A stretch of DNA of 20,088 bases from a virus. A model generated the notes under the pieces. The model did not search any database, had not been told where the DNA came from, and saw nothing but the letters and a program-made list of their open reading frames with translations. Position numbers and translations under genes: made by a program. Shown one piece after another: positions 1,395 through 20,088 of this stretch. Location: positions 1 through 20,088 of the IMG/VR virus record IMGVR_UViG_3300042564_002100, one strand, 5' to 3'. The stretch's first letter is position 1, and every line of letters starts with the position of its first letter.

Positions 1395-3008
1395 TTATCG
1401 AGTAGGGATGTTCATAACATTACTTTGTGGTGATCCTGTGACATTACAACAACTACATCCCTCAATTTTTGATGTAGTTATATATACTTTATCGGTTGAT
1501 TTAACGTAACAAGACGAAGGATTCTTAATTATTGAAGTTATAACCGTTCCTGATATCACGTCAGTACCTGATATTGTAATACTATTATATGTTAAAGTGG
1601 TCGCGGTTGAGTATTCTTGAGTGTTTGGTAGACATGTTGAAACTCCTGTAGTTATGATTTGTGTTGATGATGCGGTTGTTGGTGTTATACTCACAGGAAC
1701 TCCATTTTTATGTACTTGAACAGTATTGGTTTTACTTCCAAACGCCGGATTGGTCGCCACCATAAAATTATTATATTCGGATAAATTAAATGTTATTATT
1801 GTACCGGACGGTAAGTTTGATATAATATTATTACTTATATCTCTAACGACAACTTTAAATGTTAATTTATACTGAGTTAACCCTAATTGTATTATTGTAG
1901 AATCTATCGTTAAATTATATGAATTTGTTGATGGTCCGTTTGGAACAACTGCGGTCTGTTGTAATACTGTTGACACTCCATCTTGTACCCAAATACTATA
2001 AGTACCCGCCGGTAAATTATTAAACATTGGTGATTGTTGTGTTGTAATACCTCCATCTTTTGAATATATTACGGGTGGTTGAGCGTTAACGGGATTTATT
2101 ATTAAAGATCCCGTAGAGGTGTTAACACAATTAGGAGCGCTAATAGTGGGTGAAATTAAACTCATTACAGGTGAAGTACAAGCCCCCACATATGTGGTGG
2201 CATTACCCGGTGGTCCGTATAAATCCCAACTACCTATTGGTGGAATACTTGCGTTAGTGTCTATTATCATTGTTTGTTGATTTATATCAACAAACCAATA
2301 AGCTTGTGATAATCCTCCCCATCTCATAACGAGAGATCCAGAACTCCAAGTTGGTTTACCATTTACAATATTACCCGTTGGTATGAATGTATATAATGTA
2401 GTATTTCCTTCAGAGTTAGTATATTGTAAACATAGATTAGGATACACAACAGGTATTGGTGTCGGTGTTGGTGTGGGAGTTGGTGATGGTGTTGGACTAG
2501 GAACAAGTAAAGAACAGGTTGTCGTTGCCGTATAATCAGGACCTCCGTTTGGCCAATTGTAGTCGGTTACTGTTACAGTATACACTCCATTGGAAGTAGC
2601 GTTAAGTAAAGTAGCCCCTAAAGTTCCTGTACTCCAAAGAATTTTGTAAGGTGGCGTTCCACCCGATACCAACATAGTAATACTATTATTTGATAGATTT
2701 GGACTACAAGTAATAGTCATTGGTGTTATTGTAACAATATCACACTGATTAACCCCTGTAACTCTATTACAAACATAAGATGCGGTACATACACCACAAT
2801 TAGCATAAGAGCCCTGTAAAGTGGTTCCTATTGATGAATATGTGGGTGAATTAGGATATAATGAACTAAAACTAATAACAGTACAACAACCACTGAAATA
2901 ATTTGGTACTACCACATACCATACTTGACCAAGAATTAATGGTGATGCGTAGTCGGTTAGTGTAAATGTAAAACTGGAATCACAACAGGATTTGAAATAA
3001 TATGTCAT
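1395..3008 (-). CDS. Mosaic tail adhesin: Cys-rich module, two SprB-like repeats, Pro-Thr linker
   Basis: This 537-residue protein is a string of distinct modules. Residues 1-75 form a Cys-rich unit (YFKSCCD, then WYVVVPNYFSGCCTV, then CGVC) that resembles the C-terminal half of the protein at 3274-4014. Residues about 95-168 form an SprB-like repeat (GGTPPYKILWSTG, then NGVYTVTVTDY). Residues 170-187 are a Pro-Thr linker. Residues about 189-277 form a Trp/Gly-rich domain containing MRWGG, IPPIGSW and a closing GAC. Residues about 286-355 are a second SprB-like repeat ending in LPAGTYSIWVQDG. The remainder (356-537) is beta-rich, ends in a Cys cluster (GCSCC), and is not recognised. No signal peptide is visible, which fits assembly in a phage particle rather than secretion. 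It lies downstream of the baseplate genes, so a host-binding fibre or adhesin is the likely role. The start follows a gap bearing an AGATATTTATA motif. Confidence 0.75.
   Translation of the reverse strand: MTYYFKSCCDSSFTFTLTDYASPLILGQVWYVVVPNYFSGCCTVISFSSLYPNSPTYSSIGTTLQGSYANCGVCTASYVCNRVTGVNQCDIVTITPMTITCSPNLSNNSITMLVSGGTPPYKILWSTGTLGATLLNATSNGVYTVTVTDYNWPNGGPDYTATTTCSLLVPSPTPSPTPTPTPTPIPVVYPNLCLQYTNSEGNTTLYTFIPTGNIVNGKPTWSSGSLVMRWGGLSQAYWFVDINQQTMIIDTNASIPPIGSWDLYGPPGNATTYVGACTSPVMSLISPTISAPNCVNTSTGSLIINPVNAQPPVIYSKDGGITTQQSPMFNNLPAGTYSIWVQDGVSTVLQQTAVVPNGPSTNSYNLTIDSTIIQLGLTQYKLTFKVVVRDISNNIISNLPSGTIITFNLSEYNNFMVATNPAFGSKTNTVQVHKNGVPVSITPTTASSTQIITTGVSTCLPNTQEYSTATTLTYNSITISGTDVISGTVITSIIKNPSSCYVKSTDKVYITTSKIEGCSCCNVTGSPQSNVMNIPTR
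2452..2493. repeat. Seven degenerate GGTGTT-type hexamers coding a Pro-Thr linker
   Basis: On the plus strand there are seven consecutive six-base units of the form GGNGNN or GGTATT (GGTATT, GGTGTC, GGTGTT, GGTGTG, GGAGTT, GGTGAT, GGTGTT). Read on the minus strand they encode alternating Pro with Thr, Ser or Ile, forming the linker at residues about 171-186 of the 537-residue protein. Short tandem units of this kind can change copy number by slippage, which would change linker length without shifting the frame. Confidence 0.7.
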
Positions 3009-3112: not shown

Positions 3113-3295
3113 ATGAAATTATTAAGAACTATAGAAAAGATGGTTACTGAAGCGGAGAGAGCTTATGAAGAAGCATGCGAGAGAGGCGCTAAACCACAGG
3201 TGTTGGATAAATTAGAAAAAAACTATTTGGACTCACTTAAACTGATGTCTTTATACGAGAGTGTTGAGAAAAATCAACAAGGGAAGACACCCTGA
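3113..3295 (+). CDS. Small charged helical protein, the only plus-strand gene
   Basis: The 60-residue product starts MKLLRTIEKMVTEAERAYEE and is rich in Glu, Lys, Leu and Ala with almost no Gly or Pro, so it should form a helical hairpin broken near residues 25-28 (GAKP). That composition is coherent and quite unlike the Thr/Ser/Asn/Gly-rich beta proteins around it, which argues for a real gene. It lies in the gap between two minus-strand genes, reads away from the 537-residue adhesin gene, and its last 22 bases overlap the end of the convergent gene at 3274-4014. The AGTATTTATA motif sits 4 bases before its ATG. I do not recognise the family. A small accessory or regulatory (moron-like) protein is possible, but no DNA-binding motif is evident. 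Confidence 0.62.
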   Translation: MKLLRTIEKMVTEAERAYEEACERGAKPQVLDKLEKNYLDSLKLMSLYESVEKNQQGKTP

Positions 3296-4014
3296 CAATC
3301 ATTACAATCTCTCATTGGTGGGTATGGGAATATATTAGAGGTTTCTCTATTTGTCGTGTTGTCCCAATCAACACTCGTGTATGTCTCACTTGGTAATGAG
3401 TAATTAGCCACCACTGTGGTACATCCTGTATATCCTGTGCCACTACCCAAAGATGATCCCGACATATTAATATACCAACTTGTATTAGGTGTAAATGTGT
3501 CTTGAAACACACCATCCAGAGTGAATGTGTAGTCATAACAACAAGCACTAAAATAGGTTGGTGCTACCACATTATAACACCCTTGACAAGTTGTAAAAAC
3601 AGATCCACTATAAGTTATAGGTAACGCAACGTCATTTGTGAATTGATATCCAGAATATACCCAACACTGACTATAATCATCTAATGAAACAATGTCACCA
3701 AAATTAAGATTTGGATTATCTTCCGTATAGATACAATTAGACAAATCACTACAATTACAGAAGGTAAAATATACATTTGGTAGATATGTACAAGTAACTA
3801 ATTGAAATTTTTCACAGGGGACTATGGTCTCAATAATTTTAAGACCCACTGATGGGGCGTCAATAAATAATGGTGGTAGTGGTATTACATCAATTGGGGG
3901 TACATTATTGGTTATAGTATCAATATATTGACATTGATTACCATAAACATCACAAATATATATTTCATATGGTGGTGTAAGACCCGTTATTGATGATATG
4001 ATAATACTCCTCAT
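3274..4014 (-). CDS. Cys-rich adhesin-like protein related to the 537-residue protein
   Basis: This 246-residue protein has many Cys residues, often paired (CNCSDLSNC, CQGC, ACC, CNDC), and ends in Cys. The N-terminus (ITGLTPPYEIYICDVYGNQC) resembles the end of an SprB-like repeat. The second half (YFSACCYDYTFTL, later WYINMSG and GCTTVVANYSL, closing DCNDCQGVFPC) matches residues 1-75 of the protein at 1395-3008 in order and spacing of its Cys, Trp and aromatic residues. It starts 7 bases after the 761-residue SprB-repeat gene ends, so the two are probably co-transcribed and may act in the same tip structure. The Cys pattern could bind metal or form disulfides after release from the cell; the sequence does not decide which. 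The last codons overlap the plus-strand gene by 22 bases. Confidence 0.68.
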   Translation of the reverse strand: MRSIIISSITGLTPPYEIYICDVYGNQCQYIDTITNNVPPIDVIPLPPLFIDAPSVGLKIIETIVPCEKFQLVTCTYLPNVYFTFCNCSDLSNCIYTEDNPNLNFGDIVSLDDYSQCWVYSGYQFTNDVALPITYSGSVFTTCQGCYNVVAPTYFSACCYDYTFTLDGVFQDTFTPNTSWYINMSGSSLGSGTGYTGCTTVVANYSLPSETYTSVDWDNTTNRETSNIFPYPPMRDCNDCQGVFPC

Positions 4015-4021
4015 AACTTAT

Positions 4022-6307
4022 TTAACAAGATACACAATTTATATCATACAATATGGACACTTGTACAGTAACGTTTTGGTTTGATAATGTGTCTGTAGTT
4101 TCTTCACAACTTGTATTAACCGTAATTGTATTATTTTCACTATCAACAATAACCTCACCAATACCTGTTACACTACTTAGTAATGAGTCAACAGTATTGT
4201 ACCAACTAGTATTTGCCGGTACATCATTTAAAGTTGTTGCGGTATAGAATGATTGAGTAAAAGCACTTCCGGCAACTGTTGCCACCGCAGAGAATGTTGC
4301 TGAACTTAATAAACAATCAACACACCCACTAGTTAGATCCAAGTACCCCTCAAGTAACATTTTACCTAAAGTTCTTTCTGTAATATTACCACTTGATATC
4401 GTACTTTCACAAATATTATATTCACTAAGGTTTGATAATACAAATACCCCGGTTAATGTTACCGATTTAGTTATCGCACATCCATCGTTGTCTTGTACCG
4501 TTAAAGTGTATGTACCTGCGGATAGATTGTTAATTGACGTACCTGTTTGACCATTGACATTTGATGACCATGTTAGGGTAAATGGGGGTATTCCTTGATA
4601 TATGTTAGCAAATATCTCCCCATTGGATCCGTTAGTGGAGCTTGTCGGTATTAACATAAAATTTATTTGTTCACTATCATCTATTGAGAAATAATTAATC
4701 TCTCTACACCCAAAAAAATCCTCTACCATTACTTGATAATACCCTGACGATAGATTATTAAAAGTACATGAACTCGATGGGATTTGAGGTGATGGTGGAA
4801 CATAACTTCCATTACCCCCTTGAATTGAGTATATGAATGGTGAAGTTCCTCCGGTTGTTTTGAATATTTCAACTACCCCGTTATTACCACCACAAGTAGT
4901 TCCTGTTACTTGTGTTGTGATATTATATAGTGATGTTGCCGAGATTATAACGGTACCACTATAAGTACAAATATTGTCTGTTATTTTTAGTGTATACGTA
5001 TCGGGAAATAAACCATTAAACGACGTACTTAAAGACGTTGTTTGAACCGATACATCACCATTAGTATTTGTAAGAGAATAGTTATAATCAGAATTCGCAT
5101 TACCATTTAATATAATTGTTATACTACCATTGTTGTTACCACAAACACTATTAATTCTATCAATTGATCTTACGGCAAAACTATTTGGTTGGGCTAATAT
5201 TACTTGAGTTGGACTAACACACAGGGATGAGTCGGTTACAATTATATCGTATATACCCCCATATAAACCAGAAAAGGTATATGTTTGGTTATAAGATATA
5301 TCAATATAATTTATTGATGGTATATAATACCTATATGGTGGAGTTCCATTAATTACCGTTATCTGTATTGATCCGTTGGGGTCAAAGCAAGTCGGTGGTG
5401 TTGGTACCACTTCCTGTATTGTAACAGGGGGTACTTCACTTATTTGAGCACTCTGAGTATATGTACAACCTTGAGCGTCTGTCACTGTAACATTATACAC
5501 GCCGGCGGTTAGTCCCGTTATTGATGTACCCGTTAATGACTGACCATTAATTAATAATGATGGCGTTGGTGATGACCATAAATAAGTATATGGTGATACA
5601 CCCGTTAAACCTGTTATCAATATTTTACCGACCCCTTTTGAAACATCTCCACAATTTGAACTATTAACCGGATATAATCCGTAATTTAATTGAGTTGATT
5701 CCTGTATTATACAATTCTCGCTTCTTCCAGTACATCCACCGCCATCATCAGCAATCACATAATAAATACCATATGGTAAACTATCGAAAACTAACGAACC
5801 GGAGTCTACGGATACTAATCTTATTAAATCAGGATCCGATGGTTCGTTTGGTGGTGTAAGAACCGGAGTTACTCTATTGTTGTTGTTTTCTAAATATAAT
5901 TTATATGTAACAGTACCATTAACATTGGCAACCTCAGCAGTTAAGGATCCATTTTCTAAACCGCAAGTCGTTGCGCTTACGCTAGTAATTGACGCACAAC
6001 TGGATGCGGAAGAAACATATATATTAAGTGTTGTTCTATTGTTTTGTGTGGTGGCACTAGGTCCTCCACACGAATCATTTATTTCTAAAACATATAAACC
6101 GGCAGGTAAGTCACTATATGTTCTTGGTCCACTTAAGATACCTGTTTCAACTGTTTCTGAACCACCAGGTCTCCAAGGGTTAGGTAAAAACCAAGTAATA
6201 CTAATCGGTTCTGACGATGCGGACAAATTAAGGGTAAATGACCCCGATCCATTATTTTGACAGTCACCAATTACACTAAAACTACTAAAATTAAAATCGC
6301 AAGCCAT
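4022..6307 (-). CDS. Phage adhesin with about seven tandem SprB-like repeats
   Basis: The 761-residue protein is built from about seven units of 70-95 residues (roughly 4-85, 103-199, 206-290, 297-373, 380-455, 463-543, 548-619). Each follows the pattern 'C...NGSI.I...GGTPPY.Y.W......' then 'L.AG.Y.V.VTD..GC', for example SITGLTAGVYNVTVTDAQGC and NLSAGTYTLTVQDNDGC. This is the pattern of SprB repeats in the cell-surface gliding adhesins of flavobacteria. Residues 620-761 form a different C-terminal module that resembles the end of the gpI-like protein at 6309-9290. No signal peptide or type IX secretion tail is evident, so it is not a secreted host protein. The gene starts 1 base after the gpI-like gene stops, placing it in the tail operon. 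The likely role is a baseplate-attached fibre that contacts the host surface. Confidence 0.8.
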   Translation of the reverse strand: MACDFNFSSFSVIGDCQNNGSGSFTLNLSASSEPISITWFLPNPWRPGGSETVETGILSGPRTYSDLPAGLYVLEINDSCGGPSATTQNNRTTLNIYVSSASSCASITSVSATTCGLENGSLTAEVANVNGTVTYKLYLENNNNRVTPVLTPPNEPSDPDLIRLVSVDSGSLVFDSLPYGIYYVIADDGGGCTGRSENCIIQESTQLNYGLYPVNSSNCGDVSKGVGKILITGLTGVSPYTYLWSSPTPSLLINGQSLTGTSITGLTAGVYNVTVTDAQGCTYTQSAQISEVPPVTIQEVVPTPPTCFDPNGSIQITVINGTPPYRYYIPSINYIDISYNQTYTFSGLYGGIYDIIVTDSSLCVSPTQVILAQPNSFAVRSIDRINSVCGNNNGSITIILNGNANSDYNYSLTNTNGDVSVQTTSLSTSFNGLFPDTYTLKITDNICTYSGTVIISATSLYNITTQVTGTTCGGNNGVVEIFKTTGGTSPFIYSIQGGNGSYVPPSPQIPSSSCTFNNLSSGYYQVMVEDFFGCREINYFSIDDSEQINFMLIPTSSTNGSNGEIFANIYQGIPPFTLTWSSNVNGQTGTSINNLSAGTYTLTVQDNDGCAITKSVTLTGVFVLSNLSEYNICESTISSGNITERTLGKMLLEGYLDLTSGCVDCLLSSATFSAVATVAGSAFTQSFYTATTLNDVPANTSWYNTVDSLLSSVTGIGEVIVDSENNTITVNTSCEETTDTLSNQNVTVQVSILYDINCVSC

Positions 6308-6308
6308 T

Positions 6309-9290
6309 TTATAAACAAGTTATATTGAAATTTATACCCACATTTATTTTAAAATCTGAGTTTAGGTTATTACCATCACAAGTTAGTGTGTATATAGTTA
6401 CCACATCATCCGCTATGTAATAATCTAACCCATAATTAATAAGTAAATCCAATTGTGATTCAAGCGCCACTAACCACTGAGTAGATGATGGATAACTAAC
6501 GCCAGCACCTAAAGTTAAACCACGACCATTAGTAAAGAATGGATAACTTATTATCTCAGACCCACCTAACGATATTTTAACATACCACTCGGACGATAAT
6601 GTGTTAAAATTACAAGTATTTCCATTAGTATAATTTGAAACTAATTGGCTTAAAACTGAACCGAAAGTAGTTATATTAGGATTACTAGTCCAAGGATACA
6701 CATCACAAGTTGTTGATGCTTGTGGACAATCAATTGTTAATATTGGACCGATAAGAGTACAAGGATTACAAGGAACAGGTACAATTTGACAACCTCTTTG
6801 TCTTCTCCATACAAATTTTTGACGATGAAAAGCTGAATTCTCGTATCTAACACCTGTATTCCAAATAGTGGTCGCTGGCACCATTTGTTCAACCAATCTT
6901 ATCCAATAATCACCCAACCCACCTATATAATCAATCATTTTTTGATATGTATAGTCGGTATTTGGGGCGTTATTACCTTCACCTGATTTCAAATACTTCC
7001 AATAAATGTATTCTAATGTTGGATAACCTCCGGTCTTACCGTTGGTTACATATTGCCTATCCCTAACATTAATCATATTTTGCCAAAAGGTTTGAGCAAA
7101 TTCAAAGAATGTTTTTTGAGATGGATTTGGGTCAATTAAAGTACTATCTAATATTGTTGGATTAAGGTATGTTGGGCAATAACAATTACCGCTAATAGTT
7201 AATCCTGATGCAGGGATTGGGTAATCATAATTACTTGATGTATACCATACATCATAAACTAAGGCTTGTCCGGGATTTAAGAAAAGGTCAACATTTTTTA
7301 CATTAAGTACTAGTTTTTCATCATCAACAAAGTAAAATGAATTATTACCATCTGAATTTCTTCTTAGTCCTGTTTCTAAAGTTGACCAACTTTTCTTGTT
7401 ATCTATTGTTTTAGTTAAAGTAAAACCTAAGTCCGTATATGGGAAATCTCTAAATCTATCTAAATAAACTTGACCATATGTAAATGGTGCTAATTTGGTT
7501 TGATAATTAGGATTCTGACCTGTGAAAGTAGTGTTAACAGAATCAAATACCTCATTAGATCTATGTGAAGGCGTACTTTCAAACCATCCCGCGCCTATTT
7601 GGAAATAAAAACTATCTGTGTCTTCGGGGGCTCTAGGATATCCATTAATATCTATTGGAAACTCTTCCAAGGTTATATCAGCATCTTGTACTATTGTCTC
7701 TGTAGTGAATCCTGTAAATACTCGTCCGTGGACTTTGAATGTATTATTAGGTTCTAGTACGGGTAGTTCTTTTGAATATGTCCCACCTGATATCTGAGCA
7801 AATTCTTGATTGAATTGCGACATATTAATCTTTTGGTCGGCAACATAGATATACTCATTAAAATCAACCAATGCGTCAGGCGCTCCAATTAATCTCATTA
7901 ATCCCTCAATTGATTTTCTTGTCCCTTTTGATTTAAAAAGGTATGCGGAATTCAGAATCAAATTTCTATAAAATTGATAATTTAACTCATCAGGAGTATA
8001 ACCCCTACCAACACCAGGAAATTCACTAAATTCTTCACCACCAAAAACAGAATTTAAAAAATCTTCGTTAGTGATTGGTGATATGTTTTTTGACCAACCT
8101 AATGTTTGGGCTAAGTTCTTTAATAGTTGTGATGGTATATCATTACTCACATTATAATTAACAGAATTCATAAAAGCCAAAGCATCTATGAATTTTTTTA
8201 CTTGATCAAAACTTCTACCATATAACTCTAAAACTTTACTTATTTTCTGATCATATGTATCGAAATCTTTAAACGCACCTGTGGTTAAAAATCTATTAAT
8301 TAAGTTTGTTTTAAATGAATTAAAATTTTCAGCAATAATACTTACATTCACCACATAATCTTGAAAAACAGGGGTTCTTATATCTAAATTCCAAACACCG
8401 TCCAAAGGCCATGTTACCGATTGAGTACTAACATAGTATTTCCCATTATTATCCTCCTCAACGACTTGAAAATCAGCGGTATAAATTGGTGTTACCAATC
8501 TATTTAGTAAAAATCTCTCAATTTCATCAAAATCCTGCCCGAAAACCATTTCAGTTGTTTCGTAATTAGGTCTTATGATAAAATTATCGTAAGTTGTGGT
8601 TACACCAGTAAAAGGATTACCTCTAACAAACATTTTTAATGTCCCTGAAGATAGATTATCTGTTGGGGTCATCGAGATTAATTTGTAACTACCTCCACTA
8701 ATATATAAACTATATTTTGTGTAGGTAGTTGTCATATCCCTTAGTGGTGATAATTCAATCTCACTAACACTTATGTTTCTCGGAGCGTTTATTGTAAAAT
8801 CAATATCAAAAGGATTTCTTATCCTCGCAAGGTCAATTTCCAAATAACTTATATCGTTGATAACATCGTATTGTATATTTGTTGCAGTTGCTCCTGTTGT
8901 ATAGTTTGGGGATTTAAAAGTCACCTCCAACGCCGCAGGGAAAAAATTAATTATCTTGGTAATTGATACCGATAATCTTTTAGTTAATGACCCATATTGT
9001 GAAAAATTGGAGACCTGACTTAAATCAAAATTAGGATATACCTTAAAGTTTTTCTCAATTATTGATCTTGACTCCTCTATGGATCGAACCCCAAGACTAT
9101 CTAACGTTATTGGGTCAGAAAAAGAACCTATAACAAAATCCCTATTAGATTTTTCAGTAATCCCTACCGTAAACTCAAAATTACCTTGTGTCAATCCACC
9201 CCCATCAACTAATTGGAAACCAACTAAATTGTCAGAAAAAGTATTATCTGCGGTTGCTTTTTGCGGTGGACACGTATATTTTTTAGCCAT
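6309..9290 (-). CDS. Baseplate protein with gpI/gp7-like tail domain
   Basis: The 993-residue protein carries at about residues 345-480 a segment typical of P2 gpI-type phage tail proteins. It has the run LLKNLAQTLGW (389-399), then YRNLILNSAYLFKSKGTRKS (441-460), then IEGLMRLIGAP. In the P2 family this 'layer of helices plus KGT' region belongs to the baseplate wedge. In T4 the equivalent position is held by gp7, a large protein of similar length that forms a complex with gp6. A gp6/gpJ-like gene is present upstream at 19305, consistent with that pairing. Residues 1-340 are beta-rich and unassigned. Residues about 860-993 are a Cys-containing C-terminal module shared with the SprB-repeat protein next door. 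The ATG overlaps the stop of the preceding gene (TAATG), which suggests translational coupling. The assignment to gpI/gp7 is by motif and context, without a search. Confidence 0.72.
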   Translation of the reverse strand: MAKKYTCPPQKATADNTFSDNLVGFQLVDGGGLTQGNFEFTVGITEKSNRDFVIGSFSDPITLDSLGVRSIEESRSIIEKNFKVYPNFDLSQVSNFSQYGSLTKRLSVSITKIINFFPAALEVTFKSPNYTTGATATNIQYDVINDISYLEIDLARIRNPFDIDFTINAPRNISVSEIELSPLRDMTTTYTKYSLYISGGSYKLISMTPTDNLSSGTLKMFVRGNPFTGVTTTYDNFIIRPNYETTEMVFGQDFDEIERFLLNRLVTPIYTADFQVVEEDNNGKYYVSTQSVTWPLDGVWNLDIRTPVFQDYVVNVSIIAENFNSFKTNLINRFLTTGAFKDFDTYDQKISKVLELYGRSFDQVKKFIDALAFMNSVNYNVSNDIPSQLLKNLAQTLGWSKNISPITNEDFLNSVFGGEEFSEFPGVGRGYTPDELNYQFYRNLILNSAYLFKSKGTRKSIEGLMRLIGAPDALVDFNEYIYVADQKINMSQFNQEFAQISGGTYSKELPVLEPNNTFKVHGRVFTGFTTETIVQDADITLEEFPIDINGYPRAPEDTDSFYFQIGAGWFESTPSHRSNEVFDSVNTTFTGQNPNYQTKLAPFTYGQVYLDRFRDFPYTDLGFTLTKTIDNKKSWSTLETGLRRNSDGNNSFYFVDDEKLVLNVKNVDLFLNPGQALVYDVWYTSSNYDYPIPASGLTISGNCYCPTYLNPTILDSTLIDPNPSQKTFFEFAQTFWQNMINVRDRQYVTNGKTGGYPTLEYIYWKYLKSGEGNNAPNTDYTYQKMIDYIGGLGDYWIRLVEQMVPATTIWNTGVRYENSAFHRQKFVWRRQRGCQIVPVPCNPCTLIGPILTIDCPQASTTCDVYPWTSNPNITTFGSVLSQLVSNYTNGNTCNFNTLSSEWYVKISLGGSEIISYPFFTNGRGLTLGAGVSYPSSTQWLVALESQLDLLINYGLDYYIADDVVTIYTLTCDGNNLNSDFKINVGINFNITCL

Positions 9291-14058: not shown

Positions 14059-17000
14059 TTAAGCAAATCCGTCTGTATCAATCCATTTAGCGGTAAATCT
14101 ATCAAAAGCCGACGCTCCTTTAGTTAATCCAAAATAAAAATAGAACGGGGCTCCAAGTAAATACGATCCAGGTATCCCTGTAGTTGGTTTATAGTCAAAT
14201 TCACCCGTCGCATCGTTAATTGGGTTACTTATTGTTGAGTAATCATCAACATTATAAATCCACCCTTTATGATATTTTATTTGATTTATGTTAGGATCTG
14301 GTTGAAAGTTTTTTGATGCTGAGTATAACCTATCTATTTTTTGATATCCATATGAAAAAATTTCATTTGACCAATTATTTTTTTGATTTCCGAAAATATT
14401 ACTTACAGATTCATTACCTTCAATTTTCCAAAGATAAAATGGTACGACTTGTGTTTTTAATGGTATGTAACTGAAAGCACAAGCGTTATCAGCACCAATT
14501 CTACCATCTGGGTTATAAATTGTTCTATTTGGTGAAATATAATCTCTAGCCTGAGAATCTCCGGTATAAAAAATTCCAAATACAATATCACTAGTTTTAT
14601 TAAAAAATGTAGGTAGGAATAAAGATGAGTTAAAAGTCGTACCTGTTGGTTCCGGATAGCTTTCGGGTTCGTAAGCCGCAATTCCGAATTGTGAGTTTGT
14701 CGCAATCATTTGAGCAAAATCACCATCAACAAATTTTCTTTTCCTACTATCAAAGAAATTTAAAACACTAGATGATCTAGATTTAAAAAAGGTAGTAAAT
14801 GAAGTGTTTGCTAATCTTGATAATACAAATATATTTAATAAATCTGAAGTATCTCCGAATGTAGTTGATTCTAATTTATTCATAATATATCCATCCCAAT
14901 TTCCACTTTGAGATAAGAATTTTTGTAGTTCGTCTCTTGGACCTAAATCCATAATTGTCGTGGGGTACATATGGTTTTTTTTATTACCTCCAACATCTTC
15001 ATCCCCGTCCCTACCTATAAATCTATTACTACTGTCATTATACGGGGCACTTCTGTAATAAAAATTAAATGTGTCTGGATGTAAAAAAATATTAGTAGTA
15101 CAAACCTTATTATATGGTTGACTAGGTGGATTTGCGTTAGGTCCTGTAAAATATCTTGTATTTCTAAAAGGAAAAGCGTATAAGGTACCATTAATCCAAC
15201 TATTAAAGAACCCATGAGCAAAAACTTCCCTACAAGCACCAAAATTAATATTCATTCTTGAATACCATTCATTAACTAATTCTCTATCGTTTTTAACATT
15301 ATTAGTCTCGTTATAAGGTGGTCTAACCAATGAATAACAAGAACCTTCAATAAAATACCTCTCTCCCTGATAATATTGACAAGCACTAGGTTGTTGAACA
15401 TATATACTATCGGGTGGGTCTGATTGATAACACTCAATAGGTACTAAAGAATTACAGGTAAATGTATCTAATAAAGCAGCAATTTTATTAGGTATTTCAG
15501 GTTCAGCCGGATTATATGCTATGATTTCAGGTTCGTTTACAAGAAAAGTTGGTGATGGATTAGAGCCTGCCGAAACAACACCATCGTCAGATACTTCCGC
15601 AATATAAAATTGACCATTTGCCATCATTGTCATACTATTATTACCGAATACTTGAAATCTGTCTGACGTTGGCATTCTATCACTCCTCATTACAATCCTT
15701 TCACTATTACTCATTAAGAAACAATCATAATCTTGTGTCGGTTCTACATATTTTCTAGAATAATATGCGGAATATCTCCTATAATATAACTGAACGACAT
15801 CTAAACTACCGGTCCAATTTAAATTAGCCCCTCCTGTAAGAATCATGGATCCACCTTCTATACTCTCACCAGGTACGTACCCAGATTGAAATTGTTCACC
15901 AACAGAGTAATTTGTTAGTACATCATAATTATATTTTCTAGTGTAGAAATTAGCAACTCCAACCCTTAATCCACCCCCAAATGATGCTGGTGCTATGGTG
16001 GTATAATTACTCATACTAGAGTAGTTAACAGGAGGGGTTATATCTGTATTTCCAATATTATCCGCCTCAGATAATGAAGAGTATTTATAGACACTTCTGG
16101 TTCTAAATTGTGTCCATTGGGTTGGTGATGGTTTAAAGTGAAATGATTTAAAGAAAGTTCTTCCGCTCGAGTAAACGTCAATACCTGAATTAGTATTTCC
16201 AAGTCCGTCATGTTTAACACATCTATGTGCTTTATTTCTTGCCGAAGTATTGCCAGGAATAGTTGGTGCGTCACCAAAATCCAGTCCATCATTTGGTTGT
16301 AAAGGTATGTTTAGTTTATAGTTACCTGAAACACTAAATCTCCAGTGGTCATAATTTGAAAATAACCTACCTAATCCATATGTAACGGGTTGTCTTGTTG
16401 AATGTGGGTCAACACCTCTAACTAATATTGTAAAATATGTACTTTCTTTTTGATTATAATTCATCCAAGGATTACCATAAGACCATCCAAAACCAGGAGT
16501 TCCTCCTTGTGAGAGATTATAAAAATTAATTGCTGACCAACGATCAATAACTCTATAACTAAAAGAGCACCATCGCATTTGATTAAATGAATCCATAGGT
16601 ACCGACATACCAATTTCATTTAAAGTCATTGCAGTTATAACTTGAAAATACTCTATATCGGTTGGGTATCTTAAATAGTTGTCATTATCCTCATTAGTTT
16701 GATTTAACCTGTATGCGGTTATTAACCTTTCCCCCGTATATGGATTAGTATGACTAACATTAATTGTTGTCGCGGAATTTACATTGATAGGAGTTCCTGT
16801 AATTGATGACGCTCCATAAAAATTTGGAGTACTACCACTTAAATTAGGGTCATTAAATGAATACGGGTTATTAAATGTTAGTATAGTCCCTGCATCATAT
16901 TTTTCCTCAATTGCTAAAATCAAAACATTATCGTAGTGAAATCCATTACTAGTAGAATTTAAATCTAGGTAGTTATTGGGTTGCTGATCCCAATTTAGAT

Positions 17001-19233
17001 TTACCCCATTTAATTCAGTGTTAAAACACACCTTAATTTGTGATGTTCCCCCACCTAACATAGACCCGTAGGTTGGGGAAACATTTAACGGTGAGTTATT
17101 AGCAACTTCACCAAAAACGGCATTTCCAAAAAATTTACCTTTAAAGTTCATTAGATTTACTCGTTCGTGTAAAGGTAAATCTAAAGTGTAAATACCAACA
17201 TAATCAGGCGCCGCAGTCCCATCACCATCATAATCATATCTAAATAATGATATTTGGGGGGTTCTATATCTCATCCATTCATTAGCAGGATCTGTGCCTT
17301 GGTATCCCGCAAATATTTGTTGGAACACTGGTGTAAAATCATTATAATCGTCTCCGTTTGGCCAATCATAACTATTAGGGTCAATAAAATCGGCTAATAT
17401 ACTATTATTTACAAATTGAGCTTGTTTTGTTAGTGTACCACTTGGAGACGTAACTGTTGTTGTTTGTGATTTACAAGAACAAATCTCGCAGTCCGGATAT
17501 GAATATAATGGTAAATTTATTCTTGAAAACCCTTCAAGTAATTTCCTTATTTTACCTATTGGTCCGTTTAGACTAAAAAAACTTTGACCGTCATGAATTT
17601 TTTGTAGTAAATCTATTATATCAGTTAATAACTTACATATTACGTGAAATATCTTAACAACTATTTTAATAATAACAGTAATAAACCCCAATAAAATGGT
17701 AAAAGCGATGAATAGTAAATCTGGCTTAAATTGAGCGTCATTTGTAGGTAATTTATTACTAACACTATCACACTCCTCATCGGTTATATTTTTAATACCT
17801 AAATATCTTCTATTTAATGTACCTTTTGTATATCTTGTTATAAGTTGTGAGATAGTATATACTTTATTATAAGTCATTTCATAGAACATATCCTTACAAT
17901 CAATAGCATCCTGAATCATTATTTCACCTTCAGTGTTTCCAGTGACCCCGTAATCCGCCCAATCTTTACTAAAGGCATAAGACGCTTTGAGTAATTGATA
18001 ATTAATATTAGGTCCTGATGTGAATACACTAATAGGATCAGTGCTTGAGTTCGTCCACCCATGTTCTTTAACATTAGGTACTAAGAATGTACCTCTTTTA
18101 ACGGGAGCGCTCAAATCAGGTGTTTGAGTCCACCTTATTTTAAATCTATATTTGGCTTTGGTTGGTACTCCTTTCCTTTCGTCGTTTGAAAATATTTGCT
18201 CCCCAAATTCATTGGTTATTATATAATCCATGTTCATTGGAGTGTCTAATAACCACGTACCGTCATAATCAATAACGTTCCCATTATTCTCCAATTCGTA
18301 TTCCTCTAATACGGGTCTACCATTTATGTCTTGTTTTATTGTTTGTCTAACCGCTAATATTTGACCAGGTCCTGAGATTAGAGAACACATTTGTCCTGAC
18401 TTTAACTTAGGTTTACAGTTCCTTTTAAGAGCTCCCTTATCAATATCCGAGAATATTGACCCCATAAAAATAGCGGTTGGTTTAATAGTTACATTAGCCT
18501 CGGCAGTTAAATCAAAATCGGTTCTTGTAATTGATGGTTGACAAATTTCAGGTTCTCCCCACAATGGTAATACCTCAACGGTCTTATTTAAGAATATAAT
18601 TTGTGGTAGTGTTGTTAGGTTCTCTGATGTTTGGAATTTAGTTCCGTTAACTTGACTATCAGTTGCTAACCCTATTCGTATTAAATCTTGTGGTGATTGT
18701 GAAAATGGACCCATATCAGATAAGTCCAAATTCATTAAAATTGTATAACTACCAACAGGAACTCCGAACATCATAAAGTCACCACTATCATTGGTTGTTA
18801 CCGTAAACTTATAATACTTGTCGTATAACTCAATGGCCGTAGGATTTGTTAATACATCCTCTAAGTCAGGAAATGAACCTGTTGCTGAATGACCAGGAAA
18901 TGATGGTTTGTATGGTAATAAATTATACCTATAACCATCCTCATTAATGTCACTTATTGTTTTATAGGGGTATATTTCACTAATAGAAGGATTTAACTCA
19001 TCAGCTGCGGTTATTGGTATAAATAACGATAATTTAGCATTAGGAATTCCATATCCATCATTAACTGACACTCTACCCGCAATTACTCCATAGTCAGAAC
19101 ATTGTCTTATGTATATCTCACTTTGTGATAATTTTAAGGATAATATTTCCAAAAAATCAAAATCTTGATCTAAATTTACAACTACCGATTTGTCGATTCC
19201 GACCTGCGTTCTTACCCTATATGATTTTGACAT
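14059..19233 (-). CDS. Giant (1724-residue) baseplate-associated protein with internal hydrophobic segment
   Basis: Residues about 48-170 look like a carboxypeptidase-regulatory or CnaB-type beta domain: GVIAGRVSVNDGYGIPNAKL, a long insert, then NDSGDFMMFGVPVGSYTIL. Residues about 503-543 are strongly hydrophobic (PDLLFIAFTILLGFITVIIK and IVVKIFHVICKLL), long enough for one or two membrane-spanning helices, and are followed by a Cys cluster (DCEICSC, 581-587). Residues 667-677 (DYDGDGTAAPD) resemble an Asp-rich calcium loop. The remainder (about 700-1724) is beta-rich, full of Asn, Tyr, Phe and Trp, with no recognised enzyme motif. The gene follows the gp6/gpJ-like wedge gene after a 71-base AT-rich gap. 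The size and position suggest a central baseplate or tail-tip protein; the hydrophobic segment could enter the host membrane during infection. That role is an inference. Confidence 0.7.
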   Translation of the reverse strand: MSKSYRVRTQVGIDKSVVVNLDQDFDFLEILSLKLSQSEIYIRQCSDYGVIAGRVSVNDGYGIPNAKLSLFIPITAADELNPSISEIYPYKTISDINEDGYRYNLLPYKPSFPGHSATGSFPDLEDVLTNPTAIELYDKYYKFTVTTNDSGDFMMFGVPVGSYTILMNLDLSDMGPFSQSPQDLIRIGLATDSQVNGTKFQTSENLTTLPQIIFLNKTVEVLPLWGEPEICQPSITRTDFDLTAEANVTIKPTAIFMGSIFSDIDKGALKRNCKPKLKSGQMCSLISGPGQILAVRQTIKQDINGRPVLEEYELENNGNVIDYDGTWLLDTPMNMDYIITNEFGEQIFSNDERKGVPTKAKYRFKIRWTQTPDLSAPVKRGTFLVPNVKEHGWTNSSTDPISVFTSGPNINYQLLKASYAFSKDWADYGVTGNTEGEIMIQDAIDCKDMFYEMTYNKVYTISQLITRYTKGTLNRRYLGIKNITDEECDSVSNKLPTNDAQFKPDLLFIAFTILLGFITVIIKIVVKIFHVICKLLTDIIDLLQKIHDGQSFFSLNGPIGKIRKLLEGFSRINLPLYSYPDCEICSCKSQTTTVTSPSGTLTKQAQFVNNSILADFIDPNSYDWPNGDDYNDFTPVFQQIFAGYQGTDPANEWMRYRTPQISLFRYDYDGDGTAAPDYVGIYTLDLPLHERVNLMNFKGKFFGNAVFGEVANNSPLNVSPTYGSMLGGGTSQIKVCFNTELNGVNLNWDQQPNNYLDLNSTSNGFHYDNVLILAIEEKYDAGTILTFNNPYSFNDPNLSGSTPNFYGASSITGTPINVNSATTINVSHTNPYTGERLITAYRLNQTNEDNDNYLRYPTDIEYFQVITAMTLNEIGMSVPMDSFNQMRWCSFSYRVIDRWSAINFYNLSQGGTPGFGWSYGNPWMNYNQKESTYFTILVRGVDPHSTRQPVTYGLGRLFSNYDHWRFSVSGNYKLNIPLQPNDGLDFGDAPTIPGNTSARNKAHRCVKHDGLGNTNSGIDVYSSGRTFFKSFHFKPSPTQWTQFRTRSVYKYSSLSEADNIGNTDITPPVNYSSMSNYTTIAPASFGGGLRVGVANFYTRKYNYDVLTNYSVGEQFQSGYVPGESIEGGSMILTGGANLNWTGSLDVVQLYYRRYSAYYSRKYVEPTQDYDCFLMSNSERIVMRSDRMPTSDRFQVFGNNSMTMMANGQFYIAEVSDDGVVSAGSNPSPTFLVNEPEIIAYNPAEPEIPNKIAALLDTFTCNSLVPIECYQSDPPDSIYVQQPSACQYYQGERYFIEGSCYSLVRPPYNETNNVKNDRELVNEWYSRMNINFGACREVFAHGFFNSWINGTLYAFPFRNTRYFTGPNANPPSQPYNKVCTTNIFLHPDTFNFYYRSAPYNDSSNRFIGRDGDEDVGGNKKNHMYPTTIMDLGPRDELQKFLSQSGNWDGYIMNKLESTTFGDTSDLLNIFVLSRLANTSFTTFFKSRSSSVLNFFDSRKRKFVDGDFAQMIATNSQFGIAAYEPESYPEPTGTTFNSSLFLPTFFNKTSDIVFGIFYTGDSQARDYISPNRTIYNPDGRIGADNACAFSYIPLKTQVVPFYLWKIEGNESVSNIFGNQKNNWSNEIFSYGYQKIDRLYSASKNFQPDPNINQIKYHKGWIYNVDDYSTISNPINDATGEFDYKPTTGIPGSYLLGAPFYFYFGLTKGASAFDRFTAKWIDTDGFA

Positions 19234-19304: not shown

Positions 19305-20088
19305 TCAACTGAAATTAACCGTTTTTAGGTTTTTAACCCTAACTCTAATATCTCTACCGGGATATCTAACTTGATATATCTGTGTCGGTTCAGCGAATAT
19401 CGTTTCGTCAATTAATTCTATCTGTCTTGTTGTTGAATCCAAATATCTTTGTGATGTTTGTGATGATGAATACTGACCACCTACTTCATTTATAACATCT
19501 ATCGCCGCCACACTAATAACACCGTTTAAAGTTTGTACTTGTCTTCTTATTTCAGATATATAAACATTCTCACCCATCTCTCTAACTGACGGTGAGAAGT
19601 ATTTGGTTACAATATCAATTATTTGTGAAATAACCACACCTTGATTTTGACTTGAATCCAATACAACTGATATGTCCATACTCAAGTCTACAACTTGAGC
19701 ACTTTCTACTGATATATAGTCATTAATCATTCGGTAGTTTGAAAGATAACTAGCGATGTTTGTTTTGAGTGTGTTTGAAATAACATTACTTAAACCCCCA
19801 CTTGAGTCGTATGATAATATCTGAATTTTAATTTTATTCTCTTGTTCGGTTACCGCCACTTTGGCAGGTGCTCCGAATTGTGATGGCATTTTTCTAATTA
19901 AAGATTCGTAGTCATTAATTGTAACCGCTCTGTTTTGTGCTGCGAAATTGTATGTTACATAATTTCTAACTTCTTCAACCGTTGGTACATTCGCCCCACC
20001 AATCGCCGCAGTCGTATTATTACATCTCAATGAATTGATTACTGTTGTGTTTTGTGTTTGTGATGGTCCATTAACGAAGAATGAGACC
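19305..20088 (-). CDS. Baseplate wedge protein, gp6/gpJ-like, N-terminus missing
   Basis: The frame is open to the right edge and yields 260 codons of the C-terminal part, starting VSFFVNGPSQTQNTTVINSL. A TTG near 20030 is an internal leucine, not the start. The region EVRNYVTYNFAAQNRAVTIN, then DYESLIRKMPSQFGAPAKVA, is the hallmark of T4 gp6 and P2 gpJ-type baseplate wedge proteins ('NRAVT..DYE.L'). The later part (YFSPSVREMGENVYISEIRR, then LNGVISV) matches the C-terminal gpJ region, where successive wedges contact one another. In contractile tails this protein forms the wedge ring together with the gp7/gpI partner, seen here at 6309-9290. It is upstream of, and probably co-transcribed with, the whole minus-strand cluster. 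The product acts in the virion baseplate and has no membrane or signal segment. Confidence 0.78.
   Translation of the reverse strand, partial: VSFFVNGPSQTQNTTVINSLRCNNTTAAIGGANVPTVEEVRNYVTYNFAAQNRAVTINDYESLIRKMPSQFGAPAKVAVTEQENKIKIQILSYDSSGGLSNVISNTLKTNIASYLSNYRMINDYISVESAQVVDLSMDISVVLDSSQNQGVVISQIIDIVTKYFSPSVREMGENVYISEIRRQVQTLNGVISVAAIDVINEVGGQYSSSQTSQRYLDSTTRQIELIDETIFAEPTQIYQVRYPGRDIRVRVKNLKTVNFS

Follow-up and report, generated by a model that had tools for sequence, protein, structure and literature searches.

A seven-repeat SprB-type gene in the tail operon of phages likely infecting Bacteroidota

The window (we use this word for the whole stretch of DNA analysed, 20,088 nucleotides) is a 20-kb virus record, IMG/VR IMGVR_UViG_3300042564_002100, in which all the main ORFs are on the minus strand, with a baseplate J/gp6-like gene preceding them at the high-coordinate end. 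It is because of this gene, at 19305-20088, that the operon is counted here as a tail operon. The ORF at 4022-6307 has ATG as its start codon, and a single base separates it from the stop of a 993-aa gene (6309-9290) that precedes it. The claim of an earlier note on this DNA, that the repeat gene belongs to a tail operon and follows the preceding gene at this distance, is borne out. The features are as follows.

19305-20088, minus: baseplate J / gp6-like baseplate wedge protein, 5' end open (PF04865 30.9 bits, PHROG 6 and 219, partial TIGR02243)
6309-9290, minus: conserved tail/baseplate-type gene, 993 aa, directly upstream of the repeat gene, synteny anchor (51-95% identity in 80 viral loci)
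6312-6755, minus: C-terminal domain of the 993-aa protein, residues 846-993 (hhalign, profile, model)
4022-6307, minus: seven-repeat SprB/Ig-like tail-region protein, whole gene, 761 aa (ORF, Pfam, alignment, profile, AlphaFold)
6002-6307, minus: repeat D1, residues 1-102 (homologue alignment; own clade in the tree, support 75)
5693-6001, minus: repeat D2, residues 103-205 (alignment, phage-repeat profile, tree)
5429-5692, minus: repeat D3, residues 206-293 (alignment, phage-repeat profile, tree; nearest host repeats at 43-54% identity)
5183-5428, minus: repeat D4, residues 294-375, including the PF13573 match at 5321-5407 (Pfam, phage-repeat profile, tree)
4928-5182, minus: repeat D5, residues 376-460 (alignment, phage-repeat profile, tree)
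4673-4927, minus: repeat D6, residues 461-545 (alignment, phage-repeat profile, tree)
4436-4672, minus: repeat D7, residues 546-624 (alignment, phage-repeat profile, tree)
4025-4435, minus: C-terminal alpha/beta domain of the 761-aa protein, residues 625-761 (hhalign, profile, models)
3274-4014, minus: 246-aa protein encoded between the genes of the two repeat proteins, with synteny kept in close relatives
1395-3008, minus: 537-aa tail-region protein with two more SprB-like domains (residues 91-151 and 284-355) and a PT-rich linker

The same operon encodes a 1724-aa protein (14059-19233, minus strand) that had no significant family match and includes a long hydrophobic stretch (PDLLFIAFTILLGFITVIIKIVVKIFHVICKLL), odd for a tail protein; at the corresponding place the closest long relative of the window, contig G001, has one of 2067 aa. 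A Cys-rich motif (around C-C-D/T) recurs in the proteins at 3274-4014 and 1395-3008 and at the N-termini of the genes of L065, L066, and L072, and is possibly a mobile domain.

The 761-aa product consists of seven SprB/Ig-like domains, in most of which a Cys is conserved close to either end, and then a C-terminal domain. Its AlphaFold model (mean pLDDT 79.5) has seven successive beta-sandwiches followed by an alpha/beta domain and, with a pTM of 0.34, gives the folds of the domains and not their arrangement. There is no signal peptide at the N-terminus (maximum 12-residue hydropathy 1.0, against 2.5 in the secreted-type SprB proteins of related phages) and no T9SS sorting domain over the cut-off of NCBIfam or Pfam, in agreement with the earlier reading of the gene as one without a secretion signal. 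That the contig could be a host chromosome is rejected, as it is an IMG/VR virus record with a baseplate gene and as every relative searched gave a terminase-like match.

The earlier description of about seven tandem units with the SprB pattern also proved correct. The Pfam SprB family (PF13573) matches the 761-aa protein with 31.5 bits (cut-off 28, E 1.4e-7), and one repeat alone (residues 301-328) passes unaided, so that for the other six the pattern was checked through relatives. A SprB match was obtained in all 39 aligned syntenic homologues from viral contigs (E <= 0.01, best 2e-30); PF13573 was over its cut-off in all the tail-operon records tested and gave no match in the 14 control genomes. 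With a profile made from phage repeats D3-D7, six domains were recovered in the window protein (E 6.9e-100), the seventh and N-terminal one (D1) being located by the homologue alignment. The repeats are real and well above chance. The same profile also detects, at E near 0, host SprB proteins in which the repeats number as many as 54, and the search of one window repeat against one genome each for 84,980 prokaryote species gave 258 relatives, of which 80 were kept, 79 of them in Bacteroidota records with 35-54% identity (a host set selected by likeness to D3 and biased accordingly towards D3-like repeats). Since the host relatives come from Bacteroidota and the phage profile reaches their multi-repeat proteins, the family is that of the host SprB repeats. 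A 10-repeat SprB protein (L140 3874-7011) is encoded on a 488-kb contig labelled as a Proteobacteria MAG, by either mis-binning or transfer.

The 993-aa gene was the anchor for the comparison of loci, with 157 relatives in the viral collection, 80 of them kept. Its protein gave no convincing match in Pfam, PHROG, NCBIfam, or PDB, P2 gpI and T4 gp7 included, and its model is poor (mean pLDDT 45), so that the gpI/gp7-like label of the earlier note is no more than putative. An ORF starting -20 to +10 nt from the stop of this gene exists in all 76 viral loci that were long enough, and 75 of these ORFs match the repeat profile, the exception (L066) being a fragment that ends inside an N-terminal extension. 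Exactly seven repeats were counted in each of the 66 complete genes (one was scored as eight because its D2 is split), an architecture kept among homologues at 36-79% identity. The lengths range from 708 to 1201 aa, mainly because some lineages add domains, N-terminal in L061, L065, L072, and L084, and C-terminal in L018 and L019. The family evolves faster than the 993-aa protein, and its conservation is rather even (29-49% per domain between clades), with no conspicuous hypervariable domain or tip in this between-clade comparison.

A tree of 147 repeats (86 columns), including 50 host repeats, resolved each position from D1 to D7 as one phage group apart from the host repeats, five of the groups with starred support. 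When the best match of a repeat was sought outside its own phage clade, in 267 of 272 cases it was the same position in another phage clade. The identity of the positions therefore predates the phage clade, and neither the tree nor the 272 best-match cases gave any sign of later exchange of repeats with hosts. This goes against the exchange by recombination that had been suggested, for which a grouping of phage repeats with host repeats was expected. The array, to judge from these sequences, is old, fixed, and vertically inherited within the phage clade, a large one in which it is widespread. The situation is different for the 537-aa protein, whose two SprB-like domains are conserved in close relatives and score higher when compared with host repeats than with the 761-aa array, making it a better candidate for a later acquisition.

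The C-terminal domain has a counterpart in the gene next door. By hhalign, residues 647-759 of the 761-aa protein align with residues 877-993 of the 993-aa protein (probability 89.5, E 2e-6), while repeat D3 used as a control in place of this domain gave nothing; these are profile comparisons of shallow alignments. Positions 835-985 of the 993-family profile also match the equivalent SprB gene of G021 (E 3.2e-6), and the order helix-strand-strand-helix-strand-strand-strand is the same in both models, the 993-aa one being too poor for use except in this domain. The likeness suggests a common docking module, and from it we infer a duplication that would place both proteins on one assembly partner.

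Besides the tail array, at least five contigs of the clade (G001, G018-G020, and G021, which are three distinct phages) encode a separate SprB protein with a signal peptide and a T9SS domain. In G001 (L169 8742-11318, i.e., G001:C1:88742-91318) it has 858 aa, with a signal peptide, SprB repeats, PKD domains, and a T9SS type B domain (TIGR04131 43.2 bits, cut-off 35; PF13585 62.3, cut-off 27), and its repeats, unlike those of the tail, are nearest to host repeats in five out of five cases. A relative of 815-818 aa with the same plan is found alongside the tail operon in G018-G020 (mutually very similar) and in G021, and similar proteins of 816-817 aa are present in further contigs (L186, L195, and others). 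Another contig, G022, combines the tail operon with a T9SS-tagged 187-aa protein lacking SprB; one of its genes is split across the record ends, as in a circular genome, yet there is no exact end overlap. These numbers reflect how the contigs were collected, as G018-G022 were found via the sorting domain, while among 17 viral records found via the tail operon only G001 had it, the others being fragments of 40-166 kb. The exported-type proteins are apparently meant for the host surface, as their sorting domains would indicate.

T9SS-type genes were seen in viral records in several forms. The 815-818-aa protein just described, which combines SprB repeats and a PKD-like domain with a signal peptide and a CHU_C sorting domain, is conserved at 73-87% identity at L190 1859-4315, L203 1868-4315, L195 1865-4315, and L186 1862-4315, in contigs of up to 291 kb. 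The only record obtained from the phages collection, LR756502.1 (642 kb), was discarded as a tail homologue, its matching protein being of the secreted SprB type: 1670 aa (L003 18894-23906), with a signal peptide, 13-14 SprB repeats, and a T9SS type B domain. This record has three CHU_C matches in all, and no relatives of its 1670-aa protein were found in viral contigs. In other cases a signal peptide and CHU_C make up the whole of a free-standing mini-protein, 110-116 aa long (L204 4001-4333, L202, L214, L236, and L180 1438-1788, minus strand). These could compete with the host type IX machinery or act as its decoys, or they could be remnants of degraded cargo. In G001 (L182 1450-3164, minus strand) three consecutive small ORFs, two of them with signal-peptide-like starts, resemble a broken-up T9SS cargo protein.

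Bacteroidota are the likely hosts of these phages, given the T9SS-tagged proteins encoded in genomes of the clade, the scarcity of SD-like 4-mers (before 19 of the 287 ORFs in G001), and the bS21 gene, which in G004, G005, G018, G020, and G021 lies on the strand opposite to TerL and a few kb away from it. The same layout, bS21 near TerL and on the opposite strand, is known in freshwater Bacteroidetes-infecting myoviruses (PMC9723584), a work that does not mention SprB; the likeness is one of layout. The clade would likely be one of big or jumbo myovirus-like phages.

Taken as a whole, the probable reading is that the 761-aa protein is a captured and fixed Ig-like stalk in the tail or baseplate host-contact apparatus of this clade. 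An ancestral phage would have taken SprB-type domains from a Bacteroidota surface adhesin (or both would share an older common source), and the array would have been fixed at seven before the clade diversified, to be inherited vertically ever since. The seven beta-sandwich domains in their fixed order would form the stalk, and the C-terminal domain would most likely dock it on the baseplate or on a partner shared with the 993-aa protein. The whole may act as an adhesive or spacer stalk, provided with extra end domains in some lineages. A tail role is most likely from the position of the gene and the one baseplate match, and adhesion by the repeats is plausible.

An Ig-like array that is purely structural, i.e., a whisker, decoration, or spacer of the tail or neck without any role in host binding, is a possible but rather unlikely alternative. 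A structural stalk accounts for the fixed repeat number and register no less well than a diversified binding tip would, the evenness of conservation over the protein goes in the same direction, and among the PDB sequence matches of the family are phage decoration Ig domains and a neck whiskers protein. However, the gene adjoins baseplate genes, and the variable end domains of some lineages fit a host-contact device. It is scarcely credible that the protein is instead a surface adhesin exported by the infected host and no part of the virion. Proteins of this kind are indeed found in related phages, encoded at other genomic places, but these have both a signal peptide and a sorting domain, whereas the tail-locus homologues have no signal-peptide-like start and the window protein has no sorting domain over the cut-off, and we have rejected a secreted adhesin at this locus.

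Two other possibilities concern the origin of the repeats. That the likeness to SprB is a convergence of generic Ig-like folds (with motifs such as G-T-P-P-Y and V-T-D) instead of shared descent is very improbable: the domain is short and has weak matches to other Ig families too, but the phage profile reaches host proteins with tens of repeats, the host matches reach ca. 50% identity, and Pfam recognizes every homologue and tail-operon record tested while the control genomes are silent. The idea of the earlier note that repeats are swapped with host SprB adhesins by recombination, changing receptor specificity, is hardly tenable either; homologous repeats are certainly abundant in Bacteroidota genomes, but the separate clades of the seven positions, the same-position matches in other phages, and the invariable repeat number all speak against it. 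A host-type array can thus settle as a stable part that is passed on vertically, and need not be a hot spot of recombination. Beyond the stalk itself, we regard as doubtful that SprB repeats would act together on both sides of the infection, the seven-repeat array on the virion and the T9SS-addressed protein on the infected host; both genes do occur together in G001, G018-G020, and G021. If so, the displayed protein could occupy or mimic the host partner of the virion stalk (superinfection exclusion), or it could serve to stick progeny and cells together.

With the SprB-repeat proteins of Bacteroidota (PF13573, e.g., the SprB gliding adhesin) the phage protein shares the repeat family and its motif, at ca. 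43-54% identity to the nearest host repeats. However, the host proteins have up to tens of repeats, and SprB is exported by the T9SS, while the phage protein has exactly seven, neither signal peptide nor CTD, and a gene in a phage tail operon. It is a member of the SprB repeat family and not a SprB-type gliding adhesin. The best fold matches in PDB were pieces of the Aureispira grappling-hook protein GhpA (9flp, 9fly, and others; E 2.5e-18), a Bacteroidota surface protein with a similar chain of domains, but the likeness is at the domain level only (16-19% identity, low global TM-score). Among viruses, the best fold match was A0A6J5LD72 (UniProt/BFVD), 714 aa, from an uncultured Caudovirales phage, full-length with 30% identity (E 9.6e-61), evidently of the same family. 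Being already deposited as "SprB repeat", it indicates that the family is present in public databases; this is a database label for which we found no description of context or function, nor did we find papers describing SprB repeats in phage tails in the open-access literature searched.

A parallel is offered by the BACON domains that crAss-like and other gut phages have in tandem in their tail genes (PMC6949934). In both cases host-type Ig-like domains of Bacteroidota surface proteins have come to form a stable tandem array within a gene of the tail region, and the crAssphage BACON domains are also distinct from the bacterial ones. However, they belong to another family (PF13004, absent from the Pfam matches of our 39 homologues) and to other phages, with eight domains arisen via internal duplications, whereas here there are seven SprB-type domains and a C-terminal domain common to the preceding baseplate-type gene. 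Phage-encoded T9SS cargo is also known, in Cryophage (PMC7468147) and in one crAss-like cluster (PMC6949934), Bacteroidota phages with sorting-domain genes like the relatives of the window. In the former, enzymes and a PA14 protein have the domain, of type A, and in the latter it is one BACON ORF; in the relatives of the window the domain is of type B (CHU_C) and belongs to SprB-repeat proteins, the phages in question having a tail gene with SprB repeats as well. SprB repeats join in this way the host-type Ig-like domains that Bacteroidota phages have turned into tail parts. With precedents such as the BACON arrays and the UniProt "SprB repeat" phage protein, more surprising is the exported-type SprB protein that coexists with the tail array. 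This coexistence is the part most worth following, and the pair offers, within a single clade, a concrete and testable route to how phages handle the T9SS-decorated surface of uncultured Bacteroidota.
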